Assembly: GCF_003589595.1 (NCBI RefSeq)
Contig: NW_020654422.1
Span: 4,514,809 to 4,578,808, forward strand
Reading direction: 5' to 3'
Origin: Hyposmocoma kahamanoa
Lineage: Eukaryota > Arthropoda > Insecta > Lepidoptera > Cosmopterigidae
Length of the DNA stretch: 64,000 nt
The translations under genes and the position numbers were made by a program. The first letter of the stretch is position 1; the number at the start of each line of letters is the position of its first letter. Below, one piece after another: positions 14,185 through 42,228 of the stretch. The notes below the pieces were generated by a model. That model was not told the DNA's origin. It saw nothing but the letters and a program-made list of their open reading frames with translations, and did not search any database.

Positions 14185-14301
14185 ATGGCGTCTCTGAAAG
14201 CTATGGTCTGCTCCTTGGCTGTCGTTTACATAATATTTGTGTCGCAGCAAATGGTTTCGGGATTACAACGTTTAGGCAAAGTATGTCCACCATATGGTTA
14301 G
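14185..14301 (+). CDS. Short secreted peptide precursor, array gene 1
   Basis: Intronless frame of 38 residues. Residues 1-26 (start MASLKAMVCSLAVVYIIF, end QQMVSG) form a lysine-tagged hydrophobic signal peptide with a small-residue cleavage site after VSG. The predicted mature part is LQRLGKVCPPYG. It has one cysteine and ends in Gly, a possible amidation donor. The start is fixed by the shared ATGGCGTCTCTG in the family and by the TATA box 76 bp upstream. The nearest relative is gene 2 (mature parts differ at three positions). No function can be assigned. By analogy with short amidated insect peptides, a signalling, antimicrobial or secretion role is possible, but this is speculation. Confidence 0.8.
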   Translation: MASLKAMVCSLAVVYIIFVSQQMVSGLQRLGKVCPPYG

Positions 14302-14346
14302 TTATATAAATTTAGGGTTTACTTCTGATAAAATTTAAATTTAAAA

Positions 14347-14352
14347 AATAAA
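14347..14352 (+). terminator. Poly(A) signal of gene 1
   Basis: AATAAA 46 nt after the stop, followed by the family phrase 'agcatttgcatacaaaat' and a T/G-rich stretch. Confidence 0.7.
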
Positions 14353-14399
14353 AGCATTTGCATACAAAATCATGGTTTTAATATTTTTTAGCACTAAAC

Positions 14400-14760
14400 A
14401 TTTACTTACATTGATATCACTGATAACATGAGATGGAATAGGTGCCAGTTGTGTTTGTAGTGGTTCATCATATACAGCCTGACTTCACCCACTGGTGGGT
14501 ATAGGCCTTCAAGTTTCTGTGCCACTCCCCAGGGTTCCGTCCTAATCTCATCCAGAATCGCCTCGCAATTTCTGCGATGTCGTCCGCCCACTGTATTGGC
14601 TAGTTTAACAAAATACATATTACTTCTCAAAAGCAAACGGTGATTTTACCTCAGACAATCTAGATAGGAGCTTGAAACTCCTGAAACTCAAGGTAGTGTT
14701 AAGCCAATTTTCTTGTTTCTTCAAAAGAAACAGCCAAAGAGAACTAAGTCGAGAATAATC
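14400..14760. repeat. Array downstream module (3' flank of gene 1)
   Basis: Shared 3' flank: 'acagcctgacttcaccca' (an RTE-type LINE tail relic in reverse) then 'cagacaatctagatagga' and 'aaagaaacagccaaa'. Equivalent blocks follow genes 2 and 4, and shorter ones follow genes 3 and 5, so the duplications carried about 1 kb of 3' flank with them. Confidence 0.7.
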
Positions 14761-14936
14761 GAAGTTCAATACTTATTTCTAGGTAAGTTTTCACGCGCGT
14801 GTCTATTGTTTTACATTTTCTTCATATCAATTAAATTCTATGTAATAATCAAGGTTTAACTGACTAACAAAATTAAAGTTTACTATAATATAGCAGAATA
14901 GCAGTGCGTTTTTCTTCTTTCTGAAATATATTGAGC

Positions 14937-14980
14937 AAAATCATATGAAATATATGCATGGATATATTTCATATGATTTT
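14937..14980. repeat. Perfect 19-bp inverted repeat
   Basis: Arms 14937-14955 and 14962-14980 (AAAATCATATGAAATATAT and its complement) around a 6-nt spacer. Present after gene 1; only half of it remains after gene 4 near 25190. Confidence 0.9.
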
Positions 14981-15169
14981 TTCAAAGCATGTCGTTATAA
15001 ATAAATGTCCACTTTATTATAATTCGAAATTACTCGGCTTAGTTTTAAATTTATTTTTAAAATTTTAAACTTTAAAAGCTGGCGAACACTATCTGAGTAT
15101 CAGCCTGAAGTTCAGTGTGAAATGTGTTGAATGGTTTGTACAAAACAGCGGAAGGACAAAACGGCACAT

Positions 15170-15560
15170 TGTAATATGTTGGTTAAAATGTATAATCCTG
15201 TGAGTACGATATAATATAATGATTTCTTTCATGTCGATAAACAGGCAAGTGTAACTCTATCAAACCCAAATCATCTATAAGTCTCTTGACACGCTTTTCA
15301 ACTGAACCCAAAATACCAGTGGTATTTAGCAGATTCATCTCATTGATGATAGCAGAACTGCATACATGATTCATCGAATTGTGCTTGTTACAGCTGGAGA
15401 AACGATCCCGGTTCAAATTAACGCCATGCGTGTCAGGATTTTTTGCTGTGGATTCTATGTAATTGCCGAAGTTTAAATTAGGTGACCGGTATGATCCAAG
15501 TAGCTGGAGTATCGGTATGGATATCACGAAAAGTGGGGTCAAAATAGTCAAACAAAACTA
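15170..15560 (-). pseudogene. LINE ORF2 fragment within the array unit
   Basis: The - strand reads VISIPILQLLGSYRSPNLNF, GNYIESTAKN and, near its end, EKRVKRLIDD. This is the same LINE family as 10870-11290. Sister copies at 18235-18620 and 29010-29265 share its boundaries, so it was carried along by segmental duplication and not inserted separately each time. Confidence 0.7.
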
Positions 15561-15754
15561 CAAGTATCTTAATCAAACAGGTTCTGTAGATAGTCTAAAA
15601 TATTAAAAAAAAAAACGTGTGGATAACGACAGAAAGTCAGCGCCTCTCTATATTTGATCTGAATTTTAAAATTGTTCTATTTTTCTTCAACACGTTTCGT
15701 TATTAAAAATTTTAATTCTGATTTTTAAGTACATGATAAGTAAAGTACTAGGTA

Positions 15755-15930
15755 CTCATCACATCCATGAAGGTGCAGGAAAGGAGTCTCCCTGAATGAT
15801 GTATCATTTCTTTCCTGTACGTCTGGCGCGCCCTGAGCAACAATCTGAAAGTATCTTACACCGATTGGCAAACCCTTTCACCACGAAAGCAAGCATTACA
15901 GTGTTTGCCATCTATACGACAAGAAGAAGA
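15755..15930. repeat. Array unit module D (upstream of gene 2)
   Basis: Same blocks as 13540-13745, including 'tttcctgtacgtctggcg' and 'gcaaaccctttcaccacgaa'. Confidence 0.75.
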
Positions 15931-16024
15931 TGGTTCGTTGTTTCATGTTGTTTCATTCCAGAACTCAATTTCCAATTACTTTAATTTTACGTGTGTACTT
16001 ACGGGGACAGTTGCTTTAGCTGTA

Positions 16025-16520
16025 CCAAGCACAAGGCTGGTCGTGCATGGAGTACTGCTGCCACCTTTGGGATGGCTGTGCTACATACCAACTGGCCACT
16101 CTGGATTCAATTGATAACCGTGGCAAGAGGCTTATAGGTGTCTCGGAATTAGTGGAGGCGAAGCTGCAGAGCGTTGAACACCGCCTTAAGGTTGCCTACT
16201 TATCGGTATTTTACAGGATATATCAAGGAGTGTGTGCGATGGAACTACACGATTTAATTCCGCCTTCGCGTTTTCATCACCATCACTAGGCGTAGGTTTG
16301 GGTCCCACTCCTAGGTTAAGGATATTACACAGATTCACACGAAGCGTTACGCTTCCACATTTATATGGCGAACGGCTATGGAGTGAAATTCCCTGCCTTC
16401 AGATTTATTCCCTGAACGTTATAACTTGGGCCTTTTCAAGGCGAGAGTGAATAGGCATTATTTAGGTGTGCATGCTCCATCGTCGACCTCATCATCACTT
16501 TCCATCAGGTGAGATGGAGG
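16025..16520 (+). pseudogene. LINE ORF2 3' end inserted in gene 2's unit
   Basis: Translation includes MEYCCHLWDGCATYQLATLD, KRLIGVSELVEAKLQ and VAYLSVFYRIYQG, the C-terminal part of a Jockey/CR1-like ORF2, with frameshifts after 16280 and then 'gagagtgaataggcattatt' and a 3' UTR-like tail. It is missing from the equivalent positions ahead of genes 1 and 6, so it inserted after the unit duplicated. A shorter related piece is at 23935-24050. Confidence 0.75.
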
Positions 16521-16790
16521 TCAAATGCGTATTTATACTTTATAAAAAGAAAATTATGGCAAACCAGAGCCAGTAAATGCCACAATTAAATAAATATTTA
16601 TTGCTAATTGTTAAATACTTGGTACGAATCGTTTATCAGCACTGATTTTGCTTACAAAATTGAAAACTAAAGGTTGATTCTAACGTTACAGGTGTATCAA
16701 GAATGGTAACGATGAAGTGAGTGATAGGCGATCTTTACGGTACTGCCTCATAATATCGCTGTAATCATAATTATTTAATTACATACTTAA

Positions 16791-16849
16791 TGTCCATTGG
16801 AAACGTCTTTGTTGTTTGTATTATATTGTTTGCAGAATCATACAAAAGG
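16791..16849 (+). promoter_or_regulatory. Core promoter of gene 2 with altered TATA box
   Basis: Block 'aaacgtctttgttgtttgta' followed by TACAAAAGG at 16841-16849 where the family has TATAAAAGG. The T-to-C change is expected to weaken TBP binding. Confidence 0.65.
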
Positions 16850-16916
16850 AACTGAGCATCGAGCCGTATTAATATTTGATAAAAAGAATTGAGTTTAAAT
16901 GCATCATTGGTTCAAG

Positions 16917-17033
16917 ATGGCGTCTCTGAAAGTTATAGTCTGCTCCTTGGCTGTCGTTTACATAATATTTGTGTCGCAGCAAATGGTTTCGGGATTACAA
17001 CGTAGAGGCAGAGTATGTCCACCAAATGGGTAG
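16917..17033 (+). CDS. Short secreted peptide precursor, array gene 2
   Basis: A 38-residue intronless frame. The signal peptide (residues 1-26) differs from the family consensus only at A6V. The mature part is LQRRGRVCPPNG: an Arg-Arg pair that could be a processing site, one Cys, and a terminal Gly that could be converted to an amide, giving a heptapeptide if both steps occur. The frame is intact, but the TATA box is TACAAAA and the poly(A) hexamer is AAGAAA, so the gene may be weakly expressed or on the way to becoming a pseudogene. Closest to gene 1 in sequence and flanks. Confidence 0.75.
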   Translation: MASLKVIVCSLAVVYIIFVSQQMVSGLQRRGRVCPPNG

Positions 17034-17089
17034 TTAGGAAAATAGCAAATATTTGGTAACCGGGTTTTCTACTGAGAATATTTAATTTT

Positions 17090-17100
17090 TAAAAAGAAAA
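17090..17100 (+). terminator. Degenerate poly(A) signal of gene 2
   Basis: Where genes 1, 3, 4, 5 and 7 have AATAAA, this copy reads AAAAAGAAAA, followed by the same 'catttgcatacaaaatca'. Confidence 0.5.
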
Positions 17101-17559
17101 TCATTTGCATACAAAATCATGGTTTTAATATTTTTTGGCACCAAACATTTACTTACAGTGATATCACCGATAACATGAAATTGAATAGGTGCCAGTCGTG
17201 TTTTTATTGGTTCAACATATACAGCCTGACTTCACCCACTGCTGGGTATAGGTTTTCAATTTTCTGTGCCACTCCCCACGGTTCCGTGCTAATCTCATCC
17301 AGAACCGCCCCGTAAATTCTGCGATGTCTTCTGTATTGTATTGGTTAGTTGAACAAATACATATTACTTCCCAAAAGCAAACAGGTGATTCGACTTCAGA
17401 TAATTTAGATAGGAGCTTGAAACTCAGGGTGGTGCTAGGCCAATTTTTATGTTTCTTTAAAAGAAACAGCCAAAAAGAGCTAAGTCGAGATTAGTTGAAG
17501 TTAAAGTCTAACCTGCTATACAGATTGCCACGTAAGCTTTCACGCGAGTGTCTATATAT

Positions 17560-17765
17560 AATAATAATAACGCAACGCACTCAACATAGTCCCGCACTAG
17601 GTAAAAGCCTGTGTCGCGGGTGCTATGGACACACATATAGACAATCACAAATTACACCCAAACTCAGGAGAGAAATAAATGTAGGCCATACAAATATTTC
17701 TCCACCCCCACGGTTCGAACCCGGGACCTCTGCGTGGCAGTCCGTCATGGTAACCGTTCGCAGGC
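17560..17765 (-). repeat. tRNA-derived SINE S2
   Basis: Read on the - strand: 'gaacggttaccatg' (A-box region), 'gtcccgggttcgaaccgtgg' (B-box), 'gagaaatatttgtatggcct', and a tail ending 'gagtgcgttgcgttatta' with (TTA)n. Same family as 26400-26618 and 32493-32705. Confidence 0.8.
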
Positions 17766-17822
17766 AGATAAATCTCTAATACATCTAGAAATGTAAATCT
17801 AAATTAAACTATTTGTGTATAA

Positions 17823-18175
17823 ATTAAATTTTTATTGAATTTATATTCAATTATTTTTTGTGAAATTACTCCACTAGTTTGTTATAATTATTAATACAAA
17901 GATCGAACACTCAGAAAAAACACTCAGAAAAAATTCCTTCGATCCGGTCGGATTCGAACCGACGTCTTCTTGCATACCGTGCCAGACGCTATACCAACTA
18001 AGCCACGGAACGAACCAACGGACCTCACGAATTTTTCTATGTGCTTGCGTTGTGTCTTTGTACTTGGTCTTTCAACGACTTTTTTGGTCGTAGCGCCATC
18101 TATGAGAAATCTATTACAGATTTGTCACCCAGTTAGTACCTTTACAGCTACCAGTCCTGGCGAGAGATTTATCTT
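17823..18175 (-). repeat. Full-length 353-bp tRNA-derived SINE S1
   Basis: Bounded by an exact 12-bp direct repeat ATTTGTGTATAA (17811-17822 and 18176-18187), so the insertion is precisely 353 bp. On the - strand: a 5' body (ctctcgccaggactggtagc ... catagatggcgctacga), a tRNA-like core (cgtggcttagttggtatagc, then ggttcgaatccgaccgg), and a tail ending 'caataaaaatttaatt'. This copy defines the family's ends. Confidence 0.85.
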
Positions 18176-18234
18176 ATTTGTGTATAAGCCTGAAGTCACA
18201 TCAGCAAATTGTAGTGTGTTGATTACAATGTATA

Positions 18235-18620
18235 ATCCTCTGAATAGGATAGAATAGAATAATTTCTTTCATGTAGATAAGCAGGCAACTTAAATTCTAA
18301 TAATTCCATTCATCTATAAGCCTCTTGCCACGCTTTTCAACTGAACCCCAAAGGATCAGTGGTATTTAGCAGATTCATCTCGTAGTCGCAGTACTGCATA
18401 CATGATCGATCGACTATCCCTGGTACAGCTGAAGCAACCGTCCCGGTTCAAATTAACGCCTTGCGTGGCTGTATTTTTGGCTATGGATTTTATGTAATTG
18501 CCGAAGTTTAAATTAGACGACCGGTATGTTCCAAGTAGCTGGAGTATCGGTATGGATATCACGAAAAGTGAGGTCAAACTAGTCAAACAAAACTACAAGT
18601 ATCTAAATCGAAAAGGTTTT
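18235..18620 (-). pseudogene. LINE ORF2 fragment within the array unit (after gene 2)
   Basis: - strand VISIPILQLLGTYRSSNLNF and GNYIKSIAKNTATQGVNLNR. It is collinear with 15170-15560 and 29010-29265. Confidence 0.7.
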
Positions 18621-18889
18621 GTAGATCGAAAATATTTCAAAATAGAGCGTGTGGATGACGATAGAAAGTCAGTTCCTCTCTATATTTGATCTGAATTATA
18701 AAATTGTTTCATTTCTTTTTCTTCAACACATTTCGTCATTAATAGTTTTTCTTGTGATTTTACTTTATATTTAACCATAGACTCAACATTTTTTTAAATA
18801 TACGTTATATCATATAAATGATACTTGTATGAACCCTGTCAAGTAATCTATTACTCATCAAGTTATCCTATGGTACGTGTGTTGTAGTG

Positions 18890-19150
18890 CACTATAGTTT
18901 TCGTAGCAATGGAGCTCCTTGTGAAAGGAGCCCTGGACGAAGGGTTTGCCTATTTTTGCCGCCAAGCAGTAAGTGAAATTACAGGCACGTAGGACTTGTC
19001 AATTTATGTCTCAGAGTGACTGACGCAGTAGCAGTGCCGATTTTTGTGATTTAAAGCAGTAAATGACATAGCAACTGTTACTCATAGACGTGTCGCTTAC
19101 CACCAGATGCGTGACTTGTTCGTTCCGTTACTTGGTATTAATAATAATAT
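18890..19150 (-). repeat. Dispersed repeat S3, copy 3
   Basis: Reverse-strand copy: 'gcaatggagctccttgtgaa', 'gccgccaagcagtaa', 'cttaccaccagatgcgtgac', 'cgttccgttacttggtatta'. Confidence 0.75.
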
Positions 19151-19170
19151 AATCTCAGTACACAGTACTA

Positions 19171-19575
19171 AAAAAAACCGACCTCAAAAGTACGTGGAAT
19201 TACGTCTATTTGCCAAGTTTTATGGATATATCCCCTAGTTCGCCACTATACGGGAATTGACACAGGAGATAATAAAACTTAGTTCTTACTACTCAAAGTA
19301 TACTGAGAGAAAAACGCCTTGAATTGGAGAATAGCAAAATTAACCATTAAAATAATTGCTCCTAGTAATAAAATTTAGGCTCTAACAGCCACCCTTAGAG
19401 GTGGACGATTTTCTTCAAAATTTAATAGGACCATTATGGAGGTATGTACTCCCTTTCTAACAAAAAAAGAATCATGTAAATCGGTTCACAAATACCGGAG
19501 CTATCGTGTAACATACATACAAAAAAAACACAGTCGAATTGAGAACCTCCTTCTTTTTTGAAGACGGTTAAAAAC
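19171..19575. mobile_element. MITE-like repeat S4, copy 2
   Basis: From 'aaaaaaccgacctcaaaag' to 'gaagacggttaaaaa', with the internal 'gtcgaattgagaacctcctt'. Longer than copy 1. Confidence 0.7.
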
Positions 19576-20339
19576 AAAATTCGTATTATAACTAAAACAA
19601 TTACATTTTTAAGACATCCGTTTCTAAGCTTAAGAAATTGAAATATAGTAATAGTACATTACTGCAGAGGCCGGGGTATATTTGACATATCAATACAAAC
19701 ACAATCTCCGAAAACGAGTTAGCATTTCTTCGCTTTTTCATTGCATGAAAGTTTCCTATGCTTTCATGCATCTTACTTTGCTCATAGCCAGCAACAAGTT
19801 TTAAATGGCTAATATTGCCGCTTGTTTTACATTATGTGGCGTACAATCATTACTGTATTTTTGTTATCGCTCGTCTCACTCCATCGAGTATATACTCGAC
19901 GTCTCACTCTAACAATCAATCTGACCAACGGGAAACATTGCTCATTTTATCATTTTCACGACGAAAATACAAAACAGACGAACAAACAGAAAAGAGTACC
20001 AAAGCACTTTAGTTTATTTTACCGCCTTTTTCATTTTCTTTAAGTTAGCGGTATAAGTACGTATTTTTAATTCTCGCAATTACTAATAGTAGGCAGTTGA
20101 CTGTATGAGTTATTTCTTTGGCAGTGTACATAGTTCGTTGTTAGTAGATGGAGTTAAAAGTTTAGAAAAGTGGACGGACAGTAATGGATTTTCATACTTC
20201 TTCTTTCTTCTTCTGGGAAGAAGTCTCACGGTCCTTAAATGACAAACTTTCCGTGTTCATTTTTTGAAAGTAATGCAAACACAACAAAAACGAGTTTTGA
20301 GATATTATGGGAATTAAACTTGTTACGTAATATAATTAT
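19576..20339. other. Intergenic DNA between genes 2 and 3
   Basis: No gene or named repeat supported. A small palindromic phrase ('gaaagtttcctatgctttca') lies near 19747. Confidence 0.4.
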
Positions 20340-20844
20340 AATCTTAGTTTTAATAATATTGAAGTTCTGTTCCGGTCGAATTCATTTTAAATGTACTGTT
20401 AGCGTACTATAATGGTAGTCAATAACATAGGCTAAATCTAGTAGGAAGAGTTCGCTAACATTGGCTTTATTTTGTTGTTATTATGGAGCAACCCTTGATG
20501 ATTTACGTAAGCCCAGTGCTGGGCGTCTTACTACCTACGGTTAGCCAGCCTTCGTACCCACCCACATAACCGTTCTTCGAGTCCCACTATCTTCCGTCAC
20601 CAGGCATTTAGTAAGGCAAGTAAGGTAAGGCAGCGTAGTCAACATTGTAATACTGTAAGCGGTCTACAAATGCAATATCAAGTCTTGATGAAACGCGACT
20701 CGCGCGTCAAGAATAGTATCAAGCATTGCATATGGCAAGCGATGAAGATAGCGCAAGACGATGAGGAGAGCGATAGTGATCTTTATTTCCGGTACTGCCT
20801 CATATCGCTGTAATACTAATAATATTATTGAATTATATAACTAA

Positions 20845-20903
20845 TATTAATTGGACACGTCTTTGTTATTTGTATTCTATTGTTTGCAGAACCATATAAA
20901 AGG
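20845..20903 (+). promoter_or_regulatory. Core promoter of gene 3
   Basis: Block 'ggacacgtctttgttatttg' followed by TATAAAAGG at 20895-20903, 75 bp before the ATG. Confidence 0.7.
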
Positions 20904-20969
20904 AACTAAGTATCAAACCATATTAATATTCAATAGAAGGAGTTGATTTTAAACCTATTACTGTCGAAG

Positions 20970-21095
20970 ATGGCGTCTCTGCAAGCTATAGTCTGCTCCT
21001 TGGCAGTTGTTTACATAGCATTTGTGTCGCAGCAAATGGCTTCGGGTTCGCAGCAAAGACCTGATGCTTATATTATTCCCGGTTTACATTGTTAA
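20970..21095 (+). CDS. Short secreted peptide precursor, array gene 3
   Basis: A 41-residue intronless frame. The signal peptide has three changes from consensus (K5Q, I17A, V24A) and ends MASG. The mature part SQQRPDAYIIPGLHC is unlike that of genes 1, 2 and 4. It shares the S-Q-Q-x-P-D...I-I-P pattern with gene 5, its partner in the duplicated block. The single Cys is the last residue and there is no amidation Gly at the end. TATA box, ATG context and AATAAA are all intact. Confidence 0.8.
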   Translation: MASLQAIVCSLAVVYIAFVSQQMASGSQQRPDAYIIPGLHC

Positions 21096-21155
21096 CAAGT
21101 TAATGAATACCTATTTGTTAATTGGATTTTCTACTGATGAAATGTAACTTTTGAA

Positions 21156-21161
21156 AATAAA
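21156..21161 (+). terminator. Poly(A) signal of gene 3
   Basis: AATAAA 60 nt after the stop, followed by 'agcatttgcataacaaaatc'. Confidence 0.7.
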
Positions 21162-21589
21162 AGCATTTGCATAACAAAATCATGGTTGTAATATTTGTCA
21201 ATAATACAAAAATTTTGCGTTTAGTAATGTTACCGACAACAAAAGATTGAATACCTGCCAGTTGAGTTTGTATTGGTTAGTTTGTCAAAATACATATTAC
21301 TTTTCTAAAGCAAACAGGTGATTTCAGCTCAGACAATCTGGATAGGAGCTTGAAACTCAGGGCGGTGTTAGGTCAATTTTCATGTTTCTCTAGAAAAAAC
21401 AGCTAAAAAGAGCTAAGTCCAGAACAGTCGAAATTAAAGGCCAAGGACTGCAATACATACTACTAGGCAAGTTTTCACGCGCTTGTTAATTATTTTACAT
21501 TTTATAGAAAAATAAATCTTTTTACCAACAATATCTATTTATTGTCACTTCTAGTGTCCATGATACGTATCTTATAAATTACATGTATA

Positions 21590-21613
21590 CCTACCTACCT
21601 ACCTAGTTACCTA
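21590..21613. repeat. (ACCT)n microsatellite
   Basis: Four near-perfect ACCT repeats followed by AGTTACCT. The partner copy near 34550 has only one or two units, so the repeat expanded after duplication. Confidence 0.75.
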
Positions 21614-22383: not shown

Positions 22384-22850
22384 GTACGTTCCGTGGCTTA
22401 GTTGGTATAGCGTCTGGCATGGTATGCTAGAAGACGTCGCGTCGGTTCGAATCCGGCCGGATTGAAGGAATTTCTTCTGAGTGTTCGATCTTTGTATTAA
22501 TAATTATAACAAACTAGTGGAGTAATTTCACATAAAAAATAATTGAATATCAATTCAATAAAAATTTAAATGCAATGAATAGCGACATCTCTAGCCAGGG
22601 CTGGTAGCTGTAAAAGTATCTAACTGGGTGACGAAATACTTAAGATTTCTCATAGATGGCGCTACGGCTAAACAGTCTGAAAAAAAACCAAATCAAAGAC
22701 ACGACAACAAATACATAGAAATATTCGAGAGGTCCGCTAGTTCGTTCCGTGGCTTAGTTGGTATAGCATCTGGCACGGTATGGTAGAAGACGAATCCGGC
22801 CGGATCGAAGATTTTTTTCTGAGTGTTCGATCTTTGTGTTAACATTATTA
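22384..22850 (+). repeat. S1 SINE partial tandem dimer
   Basis: Two tRNA-like heads ('cgttccgtggcttagttggt') start about 352 bp apart (near 22389 and 22741) with one full S1 body between them. This is the same period as the 353-bp monomer at 17823-18175. The second head has lost part of its B-box. Confidence 0.8.
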
Positions 22851-23940: not shown

Positions 23941-24300
23941 CGGTTCCGCTACATACCAACAGGCCACTTCGGATTTAAGTGAAACCGTGTCAAGAGGCTT
24001 ATGGGTGACTCGTAATAAGTGGAAGCGAAGCTGCAAAGAGAATGGCACAAAAAAATTTTTATTGCCAATAGGCAAATAACTGGTATGAATTGTTTATCAG
24101 CACTGATTTTACTAACAAAATTGAAAACTAAAGGTTGATTCTAACGTTACATGTGTATCAAGAATGGTAACCAGCATTGCATATGGCCAGAGGTCGTCAA
24201 GACAGCTTAAGGCGATGAAGTGAGTGATAAGGTGATCTCTGCATTTTTGCTGTACTGCCTCTTAATATCGCTGTAGTCGTAGTTATTTAATTACATAATT

Positions 24301-24361
24301 AATGTCAATTAGAAACGTCTTTGTTATTTGTTTTCTATTGTTTTCAGAATCGTATAAAAGG
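24301..24361 (+). promoter_or_regulatory. Core promoter of gene 4
   Basis: Block 'gaaacgtctttgttatttgt' and TATAAAAGG at 24353-24361, 76 bp before the ATG. Confidence 0.7.
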
Positions 24362-24428
24362 AACTAAACATCTAGCTGTATTAATATTCGATAAAAGGAA
24401 TTGACTTTAAACCCATCATTGGTTCAAG

Positions 24429-24542
24429 ATGGCGTCTCTGAAAGCTATAGTGTGCTCCTTGGCTGTCATTTACATAATATTTGTTGCGCAGCAAATGGTT
24501 TCGGGATCTCAAAGTAAACGTGGTCTATGTCCACCAGGTTAG
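24429..24542 (+). CDS. Short secreted peptide precursor, array gene 4
   Basis: The shortest intact member, 37 residues. The signal peptide differs from consensus at V14I and S20A and ends MVSG. The mature part SQSKRGLCPPG has a Lys-Arg pair in front of GLCPPG. If a prohormone convertase cuts there and the final Gly is amidated, a five-residue amide would result (inference). It shares the C-P-P core with genes 1 and 2. TATA box and poly(A) signal are intact. The 3' flank is cut by a 3.6-kb cluster of transposons from about 25200. Confidence 0.8.
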   Translation: MASLKAIVCSLAVIYIIFVAQQMVSGSQSKRGLCPPG

Positions 24543-26939: not shown

Positions 26940-28775
26940 AGTTTACGCTACGACCCAGCGGAGCCCATATGTATGTGTATAAATGACCACGAAAAGTTTC
27001 GGCTCGAACTTCAAAATCGTTTCGACTACCTACGGGACTGCGTCTCTGTGGAAGAAATTAGCAACAGGTAGGTGGAGGCTGTCCACGCGGTTGGGTTAAA
27101 ATTCTTCAGGCAAGGATAGGCCGCAGAAACTATCCGATCATACCCTGAAGCTAATGACAAATCGACGCCATATAACGCTGCAGTCCTCCGATAAGGCTAA
27201 AACCTACAAATAGCTTGATAGACACATATGGAAGTCCATACGACACGACATACGGGTGTTTAATAAATAAATATATATATATATATAATATAAAATAATA
27301 AATAATATTAAAGATACCATAGAGCGAAACAAGGGCTCCAAAGCGTTTGCAAGGGACATGTCTATTGGGCAAAGTCAGCTTACAAAGCTGAAGACGGAGG
27401 ATGACAGCGTTGTAACGTCCAAGATAGAGGTACTCGATTACTCAGCCTGTTGCCGATTCTAGAGACTCTAGAGCCAAGCACACCCGACACTATACTGAGG
27501 ATATTCCAGACATCAGTCTGTACGTGATTAGGATGGCTCTGAAACAGCTAAAAAACAACAAGGCACCGGATGAAGACGGAATTACATCCGAGCTCCTGAA
27601 AGCGGGTGGAACACCGGTACTAAGAGTTTTTCAAAGACTCTTTAATTCAGTCTTGCGCGAAGGTTTTACGCCAGAAGCGTGGAATAGAAGCGTGGTGATA
27701 CTTTCTACAAAAAGGGAGATAACACCCTATTGAAGAATTACAAGCCCATCTCGCTTCTAAGCCACGTTTATAAGCTGTTTTCACGAGTCATCACGAACCG
27801 TCTCGCGCGCAGATTCGATGACTTCTAGCCCCCGGAACAAGGCGGTTTCGACAGGGCTTCAGTACCATAGACCACATCCACACGCTGCGGCAGGTTATAC
27901 AGAAGACCGAGGAGTATAACTTGCCATTATGCTTAGCGATTGTGGACTATGAGAAAGCCTTTGATTAGATCGAGATTTGGGCGGTGCTACAGTCTTTATA
28001 ACGGTGCCACATTGACTATCGATATATCGAAGTGTTCGAGTGTTTGTACACAAACGCCAATATGTCAGTTCGACTCCAGGACCAGTGCACGAGGCCTATC
28101 CAATTGCAAGTGGAGAGAGACAGAGCGAGGAGTGCGACAGGGTGACGTCATTTCTCTGAAACTGTTCACCATTGCATTGGCAGATGCCTTCAAGTTACTG
28201 AACTGGAAAGGACTCGGCATCAATATCAATGGCGAGTACATAACTCACCTTCGATTTGCTGACGATATCGTGGTCATCGCAGAATCGTTGGAAGAGCTTA
28301 GCACCATGCTCGATGACCTCAATAGAGTTTCCCAGCAGGTGGGTCTAAAAATGAACATGGACAAGACGAAACCTATGTCGAATGTCCATGACGTACCTAG
28401 TCGAGCAGTGCGTGTTGCCAGCGATGTCTGAGACGTGATCACTTACCATAGGCCTCATAAAAAAGCTCAACGTCACTCAACGAGAAATGGAGTGAGCAAT
28501 ACTCGGCATTTCTCTACGTGTTCGAATCCGAACACAGGCACATAGCTCGTAGAACTGACGGTCGTTGGGGCAGAAAGGTTCTTGAATGGAGACCACGAAC
28601 CGGAAGGCGTTCAGTGAGACGGCCCCCTACTATATGGACGGATGACCTGGTACGGCGGTGGCGGGTAACCGATGGATGCACGTTGTGTCCGATCGGGTGA
28701 TTTGGAAATCTTTGGGGGAGGCCTATGTTCAGCAATGGACCTCTTCCGGCTGACAGGATGATGATGATGAATATG
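26940..28775 (+). pseudogene. RTE-type LINE ORF2, degenerate
   Basis: Protein pieces in order: EKFRLELQNRFDYLRDC and EEISNR (linker), IGQSQLTKLKTEDDSVVTSK, MALKQLKNNKAPDEDGITSE and WNRSVVIL (reverse-transcriptase blocks 1-2), LLSHVYKLFSRVITNRLARR, LAIVDYEKAFD, GVRQGDVIS, then HLRFADDIVVIAESLEELST with the catalytic FADD. A deletion near 28435-28520 removes the region after the thumb, then RRTDGRWGRKVLEWRPRTGR resumes and the element ends in 'ggcctatgttcagcaatgg' with a GATGAT tail. This LINE is widespread in moths and butterflies. There are many stops, so it is not functional. Confidence 0.9.
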
Positions 28776-33205: not shown

Positions 33206-33770
33206 TTTCTTATTTCGTTTCGTTAATACTTATTTCGTTCCGTGGCTTAGTTGGTATAGCGTCTGGCACGGTATGCAAGAAGACGTCGCGTCGGTTCGAA
33301 TCCGACCGGATCGAAGGAATTTTTTCTGTGTGTTCGATCTTTGTATTAATAATTATAACAAACTAGTGGAGTAATTTCACAAAAAAAAATTGAATATCAA
33401 TTCAATAAAAATTTAATTAATACAGTGAATAACGACATCTCTCGCCAAGACTGGTAGCTGTAAAGGTACTAACTGGGTGATAAATCTTTCATAGATATCT
33501 CATAGATGGCGCTACGACTAAAAAGTCGTTGAAAAACCAAATACAAAGACACGACGCAAGCACATAGAAAAATTCGTGAGGTCCGTTGGTTCGTTCCGTG
33601 GCTTAGTTGGTATAGCGTCTGGCACGGTATGCAAGAAGACGTCGGTTCGAATCCGACCGGATCGAAGGAATTTTTTCTGTGTGTTCGATCTTTGTATTAA
33701 TAATTATAACAAACTAGTGGAGTAATTTCACAAAAAAAAAATTGAATATGAATTCAATAAAAATTTAATT
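33206..33770 (+). repeat. S1 SINE partial dimer in the promoter region of gene 5
   Basis: Two tRNA-like heads (near 33237 and 33591, about 353 bp apart) with a full S1 body between them, bounded by an exact 14-bp direct repeat AATACTAATAATAC (33192-33205 and 33771-33784). Block 1 has the uninterrupted site at about 20812-20825. The insertion separates the distal conserved module from the core promoter of gene 5. Confidence 0.9.
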
Positions 33771-33803
33771 AATACTAATAATACAATTGAATTATATAAC
33801 TAA

Positions 33804-33862
33804 TATTATTTGGACACGTCTTTGTTATTTATATTCTATTGTTTGCAGAACCACATAAAAGG
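33804..33862 (+). promoter_or_regulatory. Core promoter of gene 5 with altered TATA box
   Basis: Block 'ggacacgtctttgttattta' followed by CATAAAAGG (33854-33862) where gene 3 has TATAAAAGG. Confidence 0.65.
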
Positions 33863-33924
33863 AACTAAGCATCAAACCATATTAATATTCAAAGGAATTG
33901 ATTTTAAACCTATCATTGTCGAAG

Positions 33925-34041
33925 ATGGCGTCTCTGAAAGCTATAGTCTGCTCCTTGGCCGTTGTTTACGTAGCATTTGTGTCGCAGCAAATGGTTTCGG
34001 GTTCGCAGCAAGAACCTGATGTTGTTATTATTCCTTATTAG
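33925..34041 (+). CDS. Short secreted peptide precursor, array gene 5
   Basis: A 38-residue intronless frame. The signal peptide has I16V and I17A and ends MVSG. The mature part SQQEPDVVIIPY has no cysteine and no terminal Gly, so it would not be amidated or disulfide-linked. It is the sister of gene 3 (S-Q-Q-x-P-D and I-I-P kept), but three residues at the end are lost and the charge changes from R to E. Its promoter has both a TATA mutation and a SINE insertion upstream, so expression is doubtful although the frame is open. Confidence 0.75.
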   Translation: MASLKAIVCSLAVVYVAFVSQQMVSGSQQEPDVVIIPY

Positions 34042-35040: not shown

Positions 35041-35560
35041 GAACATCGAGTATATAACCAGAAATAGAGACGAAATAAGGGCCATATATTCCTGGTAACA
35101 CATTAGCGATACAGCTCTTATAAATATCAACTCCTCCTATCATTTGCGCAGAAATATAGACAGGCCAACTACGGACCTGTGTGTACGTCTCTGTATATTC
35201 CAAAAAATGTTCTGTATTTATTGTAATAAAGATAAAATCTTTAACAGTGCCGTGCCGTTCTATTCGGTGATGTGGGAAAAACAGCAAAACATCTAATTAC
35301 AAAACAAACGGAATCAAATTTCAACGGTAATTAAATATTAAATATGTAATTTTGCAATTTTCGTCCATTATAGCAAAGCTCAAATTAACTGGTCGATAAG
35401 AAGTGAAACAGTTGACGACACCCATTGACGACACCCGTCAATTGTTTCGAACTCGGGCCGGACAATCGCAGCGCAGTTGTCACAGTAATGATATGGCAGA
35501 ATAGTTTTCAAACACATTAAATGATGTTTCGCCTCTATTTTTGGTTACATTCTCGATGAG
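35041..35560 (-). other. Segment unique to block 2, with a coding-like - strand frame
   Basis: It lies between two TCTGAAC heptamers (35038-35044, 35561-35567) that in block 1 are only a few bases apart. The - strand reads TVKDFIFITINTEHFLEYTE, then RSWPVYISAQMIGGVDIYKS and a C-terminal tail running into the flank. The W-P-x-x-x...I-G-G-x-D pattern faintly recalls glutaredoxin-fold proteins, but no CxxC/CxxS active site is present. I do not assign it. Confidence 0.3.
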
Positions 35561-35950
35561 TCTGAACTAACGTTGTTATATTTCTTCAATACATTTCGTC
35601 ATTAATAGTTTTGATTGTAATTTTACTTTATATTTAACCATAGACACAACATGTCTTAAAATATTCGTAATATCGTATAATTGTGTGTAACCCTGTCAAG
35701 TAATTTGTTACTCATCAAACTATAAACGGTATTTTTGTATTCCATAAATTCATTTCTAATTAATTAAATTATACGGGTATTGTAGTACGCTACAGTGCTA
35801 GTCAATAGCACAAGTTACATAGTAGGAATCGTTTATCAGCGCATACTATATTAGCAAAATAAAAGACTTATGACAACTTAACGTTGCAAGTGCAGGTGTG
35901 TGTTTGTATATGTATTATAACCAAAAGCGAAGCCAAGGTAAGGCGATAAG

Positions 35951-36020
35951 TAATGTCAATTAGAAACGAGTATGTGGTTTGTATCCTACTGTTTGCAGAA
36001 TCATCATATAAGAGGAATTA
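35951..36020 (+). pseudogene. Orphan promoter relic of the peptide gene family
   Basis: 'aatgtcaattagaaacgag', 'tttgtatcctactgtttgca' and TATAAGAGG in the normal order, preceded by part of the distal module (about 35765-35945). The first ATG downstream (36029) opens a short unrelated frame, and no signal-peptide sequence is found. This is a lost gene copy between genes 5 and 6. Confidence 0.7.
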
Positions 36021-36564
36021 ACGTTTAACATGTTCAATGGATTAACTGTATGTGAACATTTGTCAAGAGACTAAAAATGTAGCAGTTGATTTTTAATTAT
36101 TATCTATCAATGAGTCCCAAGTATTTATATTCAATCTATTAATTGAAATGCGCATTGACTTAACTATATACCAAATGTTTGTTCCTGAGACAACTGGAAG
36201 AGGTGTATTATGCTAATGATCACTATCGTTTTGATATTATGATTTAAATTCTGCGTATTTGGAGAGACCGTGAAAGACAGTCAAACAACAAGTATCTACG
36301 AGTAGATCAAAAATATTTTATATATTCTCGAAAGTGGAAAGAAAAGGAACGTGCAAATAACAACAGAAAGTCGGTACCTCGCCCTATTGGATCTAAATTA
36401 TAATATTATTATATTTGGTTTTCTTCAAGACATCCCATCATATTTCTTGAAAGTGATTTTACTTTATATTTCATTAATGCAACATGTCTTACAATATGTA
36501 ATATAAATGATACTTGTGTGTGAACCTACCAAGTACTGAAGTGAGTACATGATAAGTAAAGTAC

Positions 36565-36745
36565 TACTCATCATATTCATCCCCATGAATCTCTCCTCCT
36601 CCCTGCAGGATGTACTTTTCCTTTCCTGTACATCTGGCGCACCCTAAGCAACAACCCGCGAGTACCATACGCCGACTGACAAACCCTTTCACCACGAAAG
36701 CAAGCATTACAGTGTTTGCCATCGATACGACAAGAAGAAGAGAAT
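36565..36745. repeat. Array unit module D (upstream of gene 6)
   Basis: Blocks 'tttcctgtacatctggcg', 'gacaaaccctttcaccacga' and 'gccatcgatacgacaagaag'. Confidence 0.75.
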
Positions 36746-36867
36746 CACATTAATGGTTAATTTTTTTAAAGGTAATTCCATTCCAATCACTTTAATTTTA
36801 CTTGTGTACGTCCGCAATCCAATGTAAATGGCACAATTAAATATTTATTGCCAATAGTTAAATACCT

Positions 36868-37781
36868 TTGGGGTTATGTCGGGACTCTCCCTCCAGACTG
36901 GAGGGCCTACCCCACTAAAACCCCCCGGATTTCCCTCTCGTCGGTTAAGTCGGCGCCGTGGGATCAGGAACATTCACCACGACGCCGCCCGGCCGCCCTA
37001 GCTTACGCCAGGGCTCCCGCGCCAACGGAGGGGCGAGTTGGTTGTCCTCCGATCCGCCCCCCAGACGAGTGAGGCCGTGCAATGCAGGCTCCGGAGTCCC
37101 TGTCCAAAGCCCGCTGGTCTCACTAGGGGATCAGGCGAGCAGCGAACTTCGCCTTCTCCCCGTACGTCTGCGCCGGAACGGGTGCGCGTCCGCCACGTCC
37201 TCGCGCACCCGCTCCGCGGCATCCTTTTGCGACATAACCTCTGCCCAAAAGGAGGCCACCGCCTCCCAGGACTCCTCGCTATCGAGCATGGCGGCAACTA
37301 CGCTCGGCAGCGAGAGGTCCTGCCCTACAGTGTGCCTGCCCTACACCTCTAAGGTGTGCTGCGCGGTGTCATCCGCAGCGCCGCACTCGTGGCACGACGG
37401 GGACGGTTCCCTCCTCGCCACCTTGTGCAGGTAGTGACCGAAGCAGCCGTGCCGTGCGTGTCGTAACACCTGCACAAGGTGGTACGACAGTGGCCCGTGG
37501 GACCGGTTTACCCACTCTACGAGGACAGGGCGGATCGCCTCTATGGTACGAGCGCCATAGGGGGGATCCGCCAAGCCCTCTTTCCACCGGTCCCGGATGC
37601 GCTGCACCGCGAGGGGAGCGGGTCGCTCGCCTCGGTCCCTCAATCCCCGCCGGTAGGTGCGGACCTCCGCCAGGACCTCGGCTTCCAGGTCCCACGGCAG
37701 AGTACCGGCGAGGACGCATGCGACAGCGCAGGCCACTGTCATATACGCCCTGCACTTCGTCGCCGCTGATAAGGCCCCACT
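36868..37781 (-). mobile_element. 5'-truncated R1-clade LINE
   Basis: A GC-rich island. The - strand reads LAVQRIRDRWKEGLADPPYG, HLVQVLRHARHGCFGHYLHK and CHECGAADDTAQHTLEV, the C-terminal region and zinc-finger-like CCHC motif of R1-type ORF2, then a stop and frameshifts, and more C-terminal sequence (SWEAVASFWAEVMSQKDAAE). It is bounded by an exact 15-bp target-site duplication AATAGTTAAATACCT (36853-36867, 37782-37796). The uninterrupted site is visible upstream of gene 1 near 13852. Classical R1 elements insert in 28S rDNA. This one is outside it. Confidence 0.85.
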
Positions 37782-38390
37782 AATAGTTAAATACCTGGTA
37801 TGAATCGTTTATTAGCACTGATTTTACATGCTAAATTAAATTTTTTTTAGTTTTGTAATTAAAGGTTGACTCTAACATTGCAAATCACCAATGAAACCAA
37901 CCGATGAAGTCTTTCCTACATTTAAAGTCACATGCCTCAGACATAGCTCTCGCGGGCGGCTTTATTGGCCCAGCGCAACGTGCAACATTTAAGTCGGTCT
38001 GATCTCCGGCATATACGGCCCGGCCAAAGCTTCAGAGATGGGCAATATGGCTTCAAAACAAAAATTATCATGGTCCCTGGTCAGCTTCTATCGAGACCAA
38101 AAATGTTACAATATGGAGAATCCAAGATGGCCGCCATACAAAATTGAGTTTGCTAAATCTCTGCAACTATCGATGATGAACGGATGGTGTCTTCTGAATT
38201 ATTTTAGGATACTAATTTACGCAACCACACCAACTACCTGCTCTCTCTCTCACCCAAACCAACCCAACCAAAGCAAATCGTCTTCTGAAATATTAAGTTC
38301 GTCTCTCAATTTGACACAGAGGAAGCCATCGCGGGCCGCTTTGGCGGCCCGGCGCAATGAGCGCAATCAAGTCGTAATTATATAATTAAT

Positions 38391-38452
38391 TAATGTCAAT
38401 TGGAAACGTCTTTGTTATTTGTATTCTATTGTTTGCAGAATCATATAAAAGG
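38391..38452 (+). promoter_or_regulatory. Core promoter of gene 6
   Basis: 'taatgtcaattggaaacgtc', 'tttgttatttgtattctatt' and TATAAAAGG at 38444-38452, 76 bp before the ATG. Confidence 0.7.
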
Positions 38453-38519
38453 AACTAAGCATGGAGCCGTATTAGTATTCGATAAAAGGAATTGACTTTT
38501 AACCCAACATTGGTTCAAG

Positions 38520-38645
38520 ATGGTGTCACTGAAAGCTACAGTCTGCGCATTGGCTGTCGTTTACATAATGTTTGTGTCGCAGCAAATGGTTTCCGGTTTG
38601 CGGAAAGAACAAATCGTTTGTGTTATTCCCGAAGTAGGTAAATAG
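38520..38645 (+). CDS. Short secreted peptide precursor, array gene 6
   Basis: A 41-residue frame. The signal peptide has A2V, I7T, S10A and I17M and ends MVSG. The mature part LRKEQIVCVIPEVGK has one Cys and ends Gly-Lys, the classic donor for amidation after carboxypeptidase removes the Lys. The V-I-P recalls the I-I-P of genes 3 and 5, while its upstream module D groups it with genes 1, 2 and 4. The poly(A) signal is the common variant ATTAAA, and a LINE is inserted right after it. Confidence 0.8.
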   Translation: MVSLKATVCALAVVYIMFVSQQMVSGLRKEQIVCVIPEVGK

Positions 38646-38708
38646 TTAACAAGATAATAAATATATTTTATTAATTTGGTTTTCTTCTTACAAAATGTAA
38701 CATTCAAA

Positions 38709-38714
38709 ATTAAA
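38709..38714 (+). terminator. Poly(A) signal of gene 6 (ATTAAA)
   Basis: ATTAAA 63 nt after the stop, followed by the family phrase 'tttgcataacaaaatcacgg'. Confidence 0.6.
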
Positions 38715-38749
38715 ATTTGCATAACAAAATCACGGTTGTAATAATTTAA

Positions 38750-40220
38750 AATACAAAAAAACCACCAAATTGCCATTTCGAAACAGTTTGTTTACAATAA
38801 TTTTTATTTAAAGGGTAGATATTTAAAATTTTATTTATTTTATTATCTAAGAAACCAGCCAAAAACGAAAACGATCTATGAGAGTATCCTGAGTGCATCG
38901 AAGAACGATAAACAATATCCTTACGTCTTTTAGTCGTTAACATAGCGGGATCGTACGGTAACTGAGAATGTAATTGGGAGATAGCACACAAAATATAAAG
39001 TTGTCGTACCGTATGCACTGTACACAATTTGTACAGCTCTGTTGTGGAAAATCGAAAAGGAAGATTTAGGGAAGTCTTGAGTACCGCTCTTTGGGTTCTT
39101 TCTAATTTTAATACAATAGATTTGTGAGTACCGCCCCAAGTAGTTATACAGTAGCAAAGTATAGATTGACACAACGCTATGTATACCATTTTGATTATAC
39201 CATGGTCAGCAACATTACGCAAATTTTAAAAAATATATATCAGTTTACGTACCCTAGATACCAGCATATGAACATGATTACTAAAACTGAGATTGTCGTT
39301 TATTTGTAACCCAAGGTATTTAATGGACCTAACTCTGTCCAATCGGGGGCAGTTACAATGAACCTCGTGCGAGAGAGGACATTTGTGTGCAACAATAGAA
39401 AAAGATAAATTAGCCACATAACCCCACTTCGTGAATGTTATGTACTTTGTTTTGTCTGTATTTAAAGTTAGAATATTTTCACGTAACCACCTGGTGACAA
39501 TATCAAAACCATGTTGGGCATGATGGAATACTTCTTCCCAACTTTTGGCGCTAAATGTTGGAGCGGTATCATCCGCGAAAGAAGTTATTTTGTAATAATA
39601 ATAATTGCCCATTGGGTAATTCCAATTTACAACATAATCTAGGAAAAGGGTAGATCCCAGAATACTACCCTGTGGGACACCGTGAGAGTCAGGTAGATCG
39701 TCACTGATAATGTCACCGATTTGTACACATTACGTTCTATTGCTTAAAAAGTTGCCGAAAAGCTCAAGCTGCATGCCTCTGACACCAATATGTTCTAATT
39801 TATCGATCAAAAGAGGGACAGAGACCGTGTCGGAAGCCTTCGCCAAATCTAGATATACTGCCAAGCATTTCTTCCCACCGTCGATATTCTTAAAAACATA
39901 ATCTGTGAGTTCATGTACGGCATTCCCTGTCGAAATGCCGGTAGAAAAGTTATTAGCCTAGAGTTCATAATCTTCTCTAGAACTTTGGACGTTGAAGGTA
40001 GGATAGATATTGGCCTATAATTATCGACACGGTCCCGAGCTCCACTCTTATGTACGGGTAGTATCAATGCCTTCATAAAAGCTTGCGGGAAAATACTATT
40101 TACAATAGCCAAATTACATATGTACGTCAATGGTGGCACAAAAATATTTTAAAATGTTTCAAAACTTTAGCACTAATATTTTCCCATCCCGTTGCATTGC
40201 TTTTCAGCGATAAAATAAAT
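38750..40220 (-). pseudogene. 5'-truncated LINE ORF2 (Jockey/CR1-like), nearly intact C-terminal half
   Basis: - strand order: NATGWENISAKVLKHF, YICNLAIVNSIFPQAFMKAL, ILPVHKSGARDRVDNYRPIS, DLAKASDTVS, HGVPQGSILGS, SFADDTAPTFSAKSWEEVFH (catalytic FADD), SIKYLGLQINDNLSFSNHV, then CYCITTWGGTHKSIVLKLER and a typical C-terminal end. A few frameshifts and stops break it. Its 3' end lies within 40 bp of gene 6's poly(A) signal, so gene 6 and the LINE converge. Confidence 0.85.
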
Positions 40221-40400
40221 GTCTAATTAAAGAATTATAATTACAGTGATATGATACAGTACTATATCAATTTCGTATCACTCCCCTCATCGTTTTGCGC
40301 TTGCGCTATGCTAGGTACAATGCTCTTTTGTATCGGTATCAGTATATTTTTTTATATTAGTTTACGGAAATGAAGAACAAAAATAATACAAATTTTAATA

Positions 40401-41343
40401 AGGTGGGGAGAGCGGGGCTGAACGTTCCGATTTTCAAATAACTTGCAGTTTTATACTGAAAATGGAAGATTTGATTTTCAACATGTGGAAATGTTAAGCC
40501 AATGTTTATCGCTTTTTATAATAGTATAGTCACTTCTACTCAACTCAATAGACTTTTTCACAGAGGCAAATTTTTGACAAATTTCGGAGCGGAACATTCA
40601 GCCCCGCTTTGGGCCCGCTTTTGTTCCGCCTAGATTATGACAGAATAACAAAAATTTTCTTAAATAAAACCACCTATTTTATAATTGTACGTATGTAATA
40701 TTTATATTATGTACAACTAACTTAAAAAAAAAACAACTACATTCTTATTCATCAGTAATATTATTCATCGCTCATTTCTTCATCTGAATCACAGTTGAGA
40801 CACACATAAGTGACTCTATCTATCATCTTGTCTAAATATTTGACATGAGCTCGTTTGTAGTTTGGCATCCTTAAAACAAAGAAAAATGGTCATAAAAATT
40901 TTAAGTATGATTGCAGGTCAATTGGGGAAGTTGTTCCTAGGAACAATCAGCCACTCGAGGGATGAACTTATAGCCTCAAATTACGTATTTGTACGAAGAC
41001 TGACATACCAGCAAAGTAATAGAATCAATGACAAAATACTCAAACAATAAGATTTCTTACTAATATCACTATAATTAGGAAAAGTTACGTATGAATCGGC
41101 CCATAATAAACAAAGACAGACCAAATAATTTAAACAAGAAAAAATTTACTTACGTGATATTTTGACAGCTCCACGCACATAGCCACACGTCGTCGCTGGA
41201 GTTACTGAAATGGCTGCCGGCAAGACGCATCACCTGACGCTTTAACGACGCGCTTCACATGTATTGGTACATATTTTCCTTGCAAAATTATTGCTGTGAG
41301 AACAATTTACCCCGGGAACTACTAGCCCCGGTCTCCCCTACCT
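40401..41343. mobile_element. DNA transposon with GGGGAGA-type terminal inverted repeats
   Basis: Left end 'aggtggggagagcggggct' (40401-40419) and right end, in reverse, 'aggtaggggagaccggggct' (41324-41343). A further inverted copy of the left subterminal sequence lies at about 40592-40610. A 62-residue + strand frame at 40862-41050 (GQLGKLFLGTISHSRDELIA) is unrecognised. A related terminus is at 10805-10870. The target-site duplication is unclear. Superfamily not determined. Confidence 0.6.
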
Positions 41344-41415
41344 ATGTAATAAGACGGTAGGATAACATCACAATAATATTACGTAAGATTTGTAAAATAA
41401 ATTAACTATTATTAT

Positions 41416-41490
41416 AATGTAATCGCTTAGTTATAGGACTAAAATAGAATAAACGATTCTATTTTAGTCCTATAACTAAGCGATTACATT
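41416..41490. repeat. Perfect 35-bp inverted repeat with 5-nt loop
   Basis: Arms 41416-41450 and 41456-41490 pair without mismatch around AAACG. The core of the arm is GCTTAGTTATAGGACTAAAA. Could be a young fold-back element, or a cruciform- or hairpin-forming sequence. Confidence 0.95.
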
Positions 41491-41980
41491 CAGTAATATA
41501 AATAAATTACGAAGTTGAATCTCGTTTGTTAGTTTTCGAACAAGAGTTAGTATTTTTTCTTATATTGTTAACATTATTTTATTTTTATTATATCATAAAC
41601 ATTGTGAACAGGTTTATTATACTATACAGGTGTATTATACATTTTCCCAGTAAAACATGTTATAGTTTTGATATGGAAGTTCAATTCCAAGTTAAATTAG
41701 TTCAACTTGTGCTGTATTGTACCGTAGTGCTATTCAATGGCTCAGGTTAAGTACCTGGTAGGAGTCGTTTATTAACACCGGCTTTACTAATATCAGTACA
41801 AAAGTAATGTCTGAAATTTGCATTGTAAGTGTGTCAAAAATGGTACCTAGCATAGTACATATCTAGCAGGCATGGTAGCTATTATGGCCAGCAGCCAAGC
41901 GTAAAACGATAAGGAGACTGATGTGCAATTGTTACAGTCCTGCATCAAATCGCTATAATTATAATTATTTAATGACATGA

Positions 41981-42042
41981 CTAATGTCAATTGGAAACGT
42001 CTTTGTAATTTGTATTTTATTGTTGCAGAATCATATAAAAGG
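41981..42042 (+). promoter_or_regulatory. Core promoter of gene 7
   Basis: 'ctaatgtcaattggaaacgt', 'ctttgtaatttgtattttat' and TATAAAAGG at 42034-42042. The distal module is recognisable from about 41750. Confidence 0.7.
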
Positions 42043-42105
42043 AACTGAGCATTAGGAAGTCTTTACATTCGCTAGAAAGATTTTAAACGGATCCTATTAT
42101 TCAAG

Positions 42106-42228
42106 ATGGCATCTTTAAAAGCTGTAATCTGCTCCTTGGCTGTTGTTTACATTATATTTGTGTCGCAGCAAATGGTTTCGGCGAGTTTAGGGTATATTTG
42201 TGGTGCTCCTCGTCCTGATGGACGATGA
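42106..42228 (+). CDS. Short secreted peptide precursor, array gene 7
   Basis: A 40-residue frame. The signal peptide is conserved (I7V, V8I) but ends VSA instead of VSG, which keeps the small-residue cleavage rule. The mature part SLGYICGAPRPDGR has one Cys and ends Gly-Arg, an amidation signal after removal of Arg. Silent sites differ more from the other copies than among genes 1-5, and module D is missing upstream, so this is an older branch. TATA box and poly(A) signal are intact. Confidence 0.8.
   Translation: MASLKAVICSLAVVYIIFVSQQMVSASLGYICGAPRPDGR

Follow-up and report, generated by a model that had tools for sequence, protein, structure and literature searches.

A duplicated family of very short moth genes with a conserved leader and diverse tails, candidates for secreted mini-peptides

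Conotoxin and amphibian skin peptide precursors combine a constant leader with a variable short product and, frequently, a C-terminal amidation signal, a combination that recurs in the moth gene family described here. The amidated venom peptides of Hymenoptera are likewise short and are sometimes dimers linked through cysteine (Cys), while the Drosophila Bomanins are very short, secreted and lineage-restricted, with NF-kB sites in their promoters. Drosophila Ibin and Mibin are also very short, secreted, lineage-restricted peptides (for Ibin, as described in PMC12882233). Such layouts are familiar above all from venom genes and from the effector genes of gall insects. The closest design that we found is the SSSGP-1 cluster of the Hessian fly, presented in PMC2955719 as seven genes whose mature part is super-diversified whereas promoter, untranslated regions (UTRs) and signal peptide are conserved. 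Here, we analyse a window of 64,000 nucleotides from the moth Hyposmocoma kahamanoa (contig C1175, positions 4514809-4578808), in which seven short frames, g1 to g7, share a hydrophobic leader followed by a tail that differs from gene to gene, and we follow the wider family through the genome.

The central observation is that whole gene units, namely promoter, 5'UTR, leader, tail and 3' region, have been duplicated, mainly in tandem. The units are homologous over a stretch that begins about 135 bases 5' of the ATG and ends about 100 bases 3' of the stop; with this extent and a constrained leader, the similarity within the array exceeds chance. Over all 21 pairs of g1-g7, identity is 75% in promoter and 5'UTR (2975/3965), 89% in the leader (1451/1638), 50% in the tail (449/902) and 77% in the 100 alignment columns that follow the tail (1295/1682). 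A 12-column identity profile stands at 0.95 where the leader ends, falls to 0.57 and then 0.41, does not leave the range 0.41-0.57 until slightly past the stop and then runs at 0.72-0.86 across the following 96 columns.

Translation of the window places the seven plus-strand frames of 37-41 codons where the initial annotation had them. Judged by sequence, they are intronless, and each begins with a hydrophobic leader of 26 residues that departs from MASLKAIVCSLAVVYIIFVSQQMVSG by one to four residues per gene (hand count, g1-g7), followed by a tail of 11-15 residues. With the leader as a tblastn query against the window, g1-g7 were recovered at E values of 1.5e-12 to 6.5e-11, the next match standing at E 0.5. 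The tail motifs are also as first described, with CPP in g1, g2 and g4 and IIP in g3 and g5; of the two tails that had been called unique, that of g6 is not wholly so, since it contains VCVIP, which aligns with the IIP pair. The array itself is real yet incomplete as originally drawn, since a profile search of the window adds a diverged eighth gene, g8, and an orphan promoter also lies in or beside it. Neighbours from g1 to g8 are spaced 2.6-9.4 kb apart, all on the plus strand. In g2, a second in-frame ATG lies upstream at 16899 and would, if used, lengthen the N-terminus ahead of the leader by six residues.

Within the unit, leader and promoter evolve most slowly and the tail evolves fastest. 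Relative rates by partition were 0.42 for the promoter, 0.89 for the 5'UTR, 1.17 for the 3'UTR and 2.61 for the tail, with 0.28 at leader codon positions 1 and 2 and 0.61 at position 3. Differences in the leader lean towards silent changes (proportion of silent differences, pS, 0.24; of replacement differences, pN, 0.08; summed over the 21 pairs), and a codon model fitted to g1-g7 on the UTR tree gives a leader omega, the ratio of replacement to silent rates, of 0.41 (p 0.018). With the scale fixed to that of the UTRs, leader omega is 0.23 (p 3e-13), or 0.33 (p 2e-6) without g7. In the codon model the tail has a scale 2.7-3.1 times as large as the UTRs when all seven genes are used (p 6e-10), and 2.0-2.7 times as large in two gene subsets with omega set to 1. 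The pattern that the initial annotation had recognised, a gene family in which the leader is conserved and the tail varies far more, is borne out by identities and rates alike, here in a lepidopteran.

A search of the genome (728 Mb in 2,727 contigs) extended the family to 15 intact peptides, g1-g8 and seven relatives elsewhere (c1-c3, k1, k2, u1 and u2), a count that is a lower bound. Most precursors have 37-44 residues, while those of g8, k1, k2 and u1 have 28-31. Several further copies were left outside the counts: one on contig C2217 that differs from k2 by one residue; one at C1175:4634064, some 130 bases past the k1 stop codon, with the leader, no matching promoter of its own and, by eye, a seemingly disrupted tail frame; a truncated copy of 19 residues at C1175:4627082 on the minus strand; and two promoter relics, the orphan promoter at 35945-36022 and another without a gene at C1175:4476346. 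Contig C2217 (15,781 bases), at first sight a second haplotype, shares, among the matches listed, only eight patches of 81-96% identity with C1175 near k2; it may be a paralogue or else a haplotype that has diverged strongly.

Among these 15 peptides, the tails keep a Cys and certain kinds of ending. Against a null built from the 12 codons preceding each of 9,576 stops of this DNA, in six frames and with the family genes included, Cys is found in 14/15 tails (null 0.33), exactly one in 13 of them; six tails end in G, GK or GR, as for amidation (null 0.036), and six others end in Cys (null 0.027), making 12/15 with one or other ending. Sorting the genes by hand into ten lineages ({g1,g2,g4}, {g3,g5}, g6, g7, {g8,k1,k2}, u1, u2, c1, c2 and c3) leaves Cys somewhere in 10/10 (p 2e-5), an amidation-type end in 4/10 (p 3e-4) and a Cys end in 4/10 (p 1e-4), p-values that assume independent lineages and tail boundaries set by hand. 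A merely drifting tail is unlikely, because Cys and the end types are kept across lineages. The initial annotation had held that a tail evolving neutrally, with frameshifts as common as substitutions, would tell against its proposal; what we see is a tail that is faster than its flanks and that keeps its Cys, but whose end shifts by insertions and deletions (judged by eye). By a simple rule, applied without SignalP, an N-terminal hydrophobic signal with a -3/-1 site is present in 12/15 peptides (g1-g7, c1-c3, u1 and u2), the hydrophobic core of u2 being weak, and in all seven of g1-g7 a V/A-S-G/A site stands just where the variability starts.

The upstream blocks carry a signature specific to the family. 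A 31-base promoter element has ten matches within three mismatches in the whole genome, all at family copies (g1-g6, u1, k2, the C2217 copy and the truncated copy), and its reversed control has none; g7, g8, k1, c1-c3 and u2 are missed at this threshold, and most of their aligned promoters resemble it. All of g1-g7 have the start context AAGATGG or GAGATGG and, allowing four spellings, a TATA-like box at -72 to -77. AATAAA follows at +40 to +71 in 5/7, with none within 200 bases in g2 and only one at +10 in g6. SOX-like strings lie at about -100 to -115 in 11/15 genes, with FOX-like strings in part of those, and GATA sites are scattered through the upstream regions, which hold no STAT or ecdysone-type sites where scanned; the SOX- and FOX-like strings are short motifs inside the shared promoter that point to nothing firm, and we claim no factor from them.

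Searches for relatives returned little. In a protein database that holds insects, but whose coverage of frames of about 40 amino acids is not established, a seven-member alignment gave no candidate with three shared words and, of the 26 candidates from a 15-member alignment, not one reached E 10 or below. A neighbouring esterase, used as control, matched 4869 proteins among 7990 candidates scored, the 120 listed including many Lepidoptera and H. kahamanoa itself. That no homologue of the family was found in a database with many Lepidoptera, and with at least one esterase from the same contig, agrees with the suggestion that such genes are missed by annotation, as these apparently were. Pfam returned no family for the six of the 15 proteins scanned (E up to 10), solved structures, queried with g6 only, gave the single match HeliScrew4 (E 0.24), none of 69 pattern matches in viral contigs was confirmed, and, among the papers listed by literature searches and judged mostly from those listings, none describes the mini-peptide family. 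The family is probably new and its gene design known.

Comparison with the known systems sharpens this picture. The Hessian fly SSSGP genes are likewise species-restricted, and one SSSGP group also lacks introns, according to the account in PMC2955719; they belong to another insect order, and our database searches, rather than a direct comparison, found no sequence relation. As given in the same source, their mature regions measure mostly 189-636 nucleotides against about 18-51 here, SSSGP-1 has an intron, and positive selection is reported there, which is not shown here (PMC2955719). Set against conotoxin and amphibian skin precursors, the moth family lacks a propeptide, usually has one Cys instead of a Cys framework and has no known delivery organ. 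Unlike the hymenopteran venom peptides, to which no sequence relation was found, it has no acidic pro-region and, to our knowledge, no venom is known from H. kahamanoa.

We take these frames to be real genes with predicted expression, and the best reading, by analogy, is an arsenal of secreted mini-peptides designed like the Hessian fly SSSGP genes. More fully, and at a probability that we put at roughly 0.62, these would be compact intronless lepidopteran genes for secreted mini-peptides, in which duplicated units under a family promoter encode the diverse tails of a peptide mixture acting outwards. The common promoter would switch the genes on together in one secretory cell type, and signal peptidase would cut after residue 26 or 27, with V/A-S-G/A at -3 to -1, to release a peptide of about 10-17 residues, usually with one Cys. 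This lone Cys may pair the peptide into disulfide dimers or with partners, and ends in G, GK or GR could be amidated. The mixture would be directed outwards at biological targets that change, its source being perhaps the labial or silk gland, the gut, the cuticle or the seminal fluid; the tails would stay diverse while constraint, perhaps with gene conversion, keeps the flanks alike. Less likely than not is the bolder version, a new and near-minimal insect exocrine arsenal in which intronless frames of 87-135 bases encode one-Cys peptides, about 6-17 residues long and often amidated; these would stay diverse, the rest of each gene being held uniform by gene conversion and the family promoter.

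Several observations weigh against an arsenal of secreted mini-peptides. The tree behind the rates is poorly resolved, with support of 45-54% except for 100% at g3+g5, and leader omega without g7 is 0.57 (p 0.21), so that significance is lost. When six of the 21 gene pairs were tested directly, the tail was faster than the non-coding flank (p < 0.05) in just three and the leader slower than the flank in just three. Tail omega is 0.82 for all seven genes, 1.07 without g7 and 1.13 for g1/g2/g4, none of these different from 1; because tail omega is about 1, positive selection is not demonstrated, and the diversifying selection proposed at the outset is not shown in its strict sense. A value of 4.06 for g3/g5/g6 (p 0.045) comes from one of several tests, uncorrected, and with a free scale of 0.62. 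To these can be added the 31-base element found within three mismatches in only 8/15 counted genes, a strict TATAWAAR near the expected place in only 7/15, a g5 tail without Cys, the hand-set boundaries behind the lineage counts, and cleavage sites that are unconvincing in g8 and k1 and ambiguous in k2, because of which this branch may stay membrane-anchored.

The tails are quicker at silent and replacement sites alike, and their rates are fitted equally well by homogenized flanks around old tails. Misalignment or local mutation can account for fast silent change in a tail, as can gene conversion if it spares the tail while renewing the flanks, which is what the account cited above proposed for the Hessian fly genes (PMC2955719). 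Weak local support for gene conversion comes from g6, whose partner changes along the unit: g1 in promoter and 5'UTR (0.50), g3/g5 in the tail (0.97) and g7 in the outer flanks (0.81, 0.82).

The strongest rival is a functional leader with a drifting tail, in which a leader of about 20-26 residues would itself be what the gene makes, as a membrane micropeptide or signal anchor; this may hold for the g8 branch and is unlikely for the family. The leader is indeed the constrained part, tail omega near 1 is what it expects, and the g8 branch, at only 28-29 amino acids, includes two members, g8 and k1, without a convincing cleavage site; tails so short would, moreover, often be open by chance, by a rough estimate. 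A drifting tail should, however, match the UTRs in rate, whereas the observed tail is two to three times faster, and drift accounts poorly for the near-universal Cys, for G/GK/GR or Cys ends far above the null, and for the cleavage-type site at the onset of variability throughout g1-g7.

A second possibility, which we hold to be somewhat less probable again, is that these are host-defence peptides like Drosophila Bomanin or Ibin, induced on infection through Toll or Imd, and in being short, secreted and lineage-restricted they do resemble Ibin as it is described in PMC12882233. An immune role is made less likely by the upstream regions, as none of the 15 genes has an NF-kB consensus within 400 bases upstream in any of three motif forms, a difference from the Bomanins. 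The tails, moreover, are not uniformly cationic (net charge about -2 to +3, hand count), and only one of the 15, that of c2, has a CXXC string (C-M-P-C).

We regard as improbable a third explanation, that the frames are signal peptide first exons of longer proteins with the tail partly intron read-through, for which there is precedent in the first intron of Hessian fly SSSGP genes, placed by PMC2955719 at the leader/mature boundary or inside the leader. In g1, g4 and g6, donor-like 9-mers scoring 7/9 do lie within the tail or directly behind it, but their positions are not constant and g5 has none that reaches 6/9. Nor is there a shared second exon in view: among 254 downstream frames compared, none is common to more than 5/7 units, those best shared (among the 25 best) fall in g1-g5 and in more than one frame, which is the outcome expected of plain DNA duplication, and the 3' block follows close behind the stop. 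Weakest of all is a decaying or silent repeat family of duplicated, unexpressed copies, to which the orphan promoters, the truncated copy, the copy with a disrupted-looking tail frame and the position of the array in repeat-rich DNA with frames like transposon debris (by eye) lend some colour, but in which leader and promoter should not be slower than the UTRs nor 15 intact frames remain, decay being real for some copies only.

Table 1. Positions of family genes and of their flanking blocks (plain coordinates refer to the window, others to the contig named)
Feature	Position	Strand	Details
g1	14185..14301	+	38 aa, tail LQRLGKVCPPYG
g2	16917..17033	+	38 aa, tail LQRRGRVCPPNG
g3	20970..21095	+	41 aa, tail SQQRPDAYIIPGLHC
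g4	24429..24542	+	37 aa, tail SQSKRGLCPPG
g5	33925..34041	+	38 aa, tail SQQEPDVVIIPY, without Cys
g6	38520..38645	+	41 aa, tail LRKEQIVCVIPEVGK
g7	42106..42228	+	40 aa, tail SLGYICGAPRPDGR
g8, diverged eighth gene	46540..46626	+	28 aa, ends EPTSYTNC; TATA box upstream, AATAAA at +29; profile search of window
g1 promoter and 5'UTR block	14050..14184	+	31-base element 14072-14102
g2 promoter and 5'UTR block	16776..16916	+	element 16804-16834
g3 promoter and 5'UTR block	20830..20969	+	element 20858-20888
g4 promoter and 5'UTR block	24288..24428	+	element 24316-24346
g5 promoter and 5'UTR block	33789..33924	+	element 33817-33847
g6 promoter and 5'UTR block	38377..38519	+	element 38407-38437
g7 promoter and 5'UTR block	41970..42105	+	31-base element not within 3 mismatches
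g8 promoter and 5'UTR block	46420..46539	+	31-base element not within 3 mismatches
Orphan promoter	35945..36022	+	no family frame seen behind; probable relic of a lost copy
g1 shared 3' block with AATAAA	14313..14410	+	similar blocks after g2-g7
c1	C733:21456428	-	genome search
c2	C733:21463404	+	genome search
c3	C733:21466490	+	genome search
k1	C1175:4633848	+	genome search
k2	C1175:4638035	-	genome search
u1	C1175:4442371	-	genome search
u2	C1175:4455221	-	genome search

The surroundings of the array hold further features. Five matches to threonine transfer RNA (tRNA-Thr; Rfam and ARAGORN) lie at 17939-18012, 22387-22465, 33236-33314, 33592-33665 and 6423-6496, several of them inside dispersed repeats common with 45702-46007 and 62743-62948, and they look like the heads of tRNA-derived short interspersed elements rather than genes. 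Frames resembling debris of retrotransposons without long terminal repeats (by eye) occupy 27428-28697, 38749-40148 and 36949-37808. Downstream of the array in C1175, three carboxylesterase-like frames extend over about 80381-94662 in window coordinates, the nearest about 16 kb past the window end; relatives of the first are juvenile hormone esterase-like, including an H. kahamanoa protein, and esterase FE4-like.

Hyposmocoma kahamanoa is a cosmopterigid moth, and its genus, a large Hawaiian radiation, includes species with aquatic larvae. Should the proposal of secreted mini-peptides be true, the family would be an instance in Lepidoptera of a gene design that joins a constant leader to a variable product, here close to the lower limit of size, in frames so short that they escape annotation. 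The 31-base family-specific element would then offer a handle on the expressing tissue, and on how flanks can stay alike while products differ.

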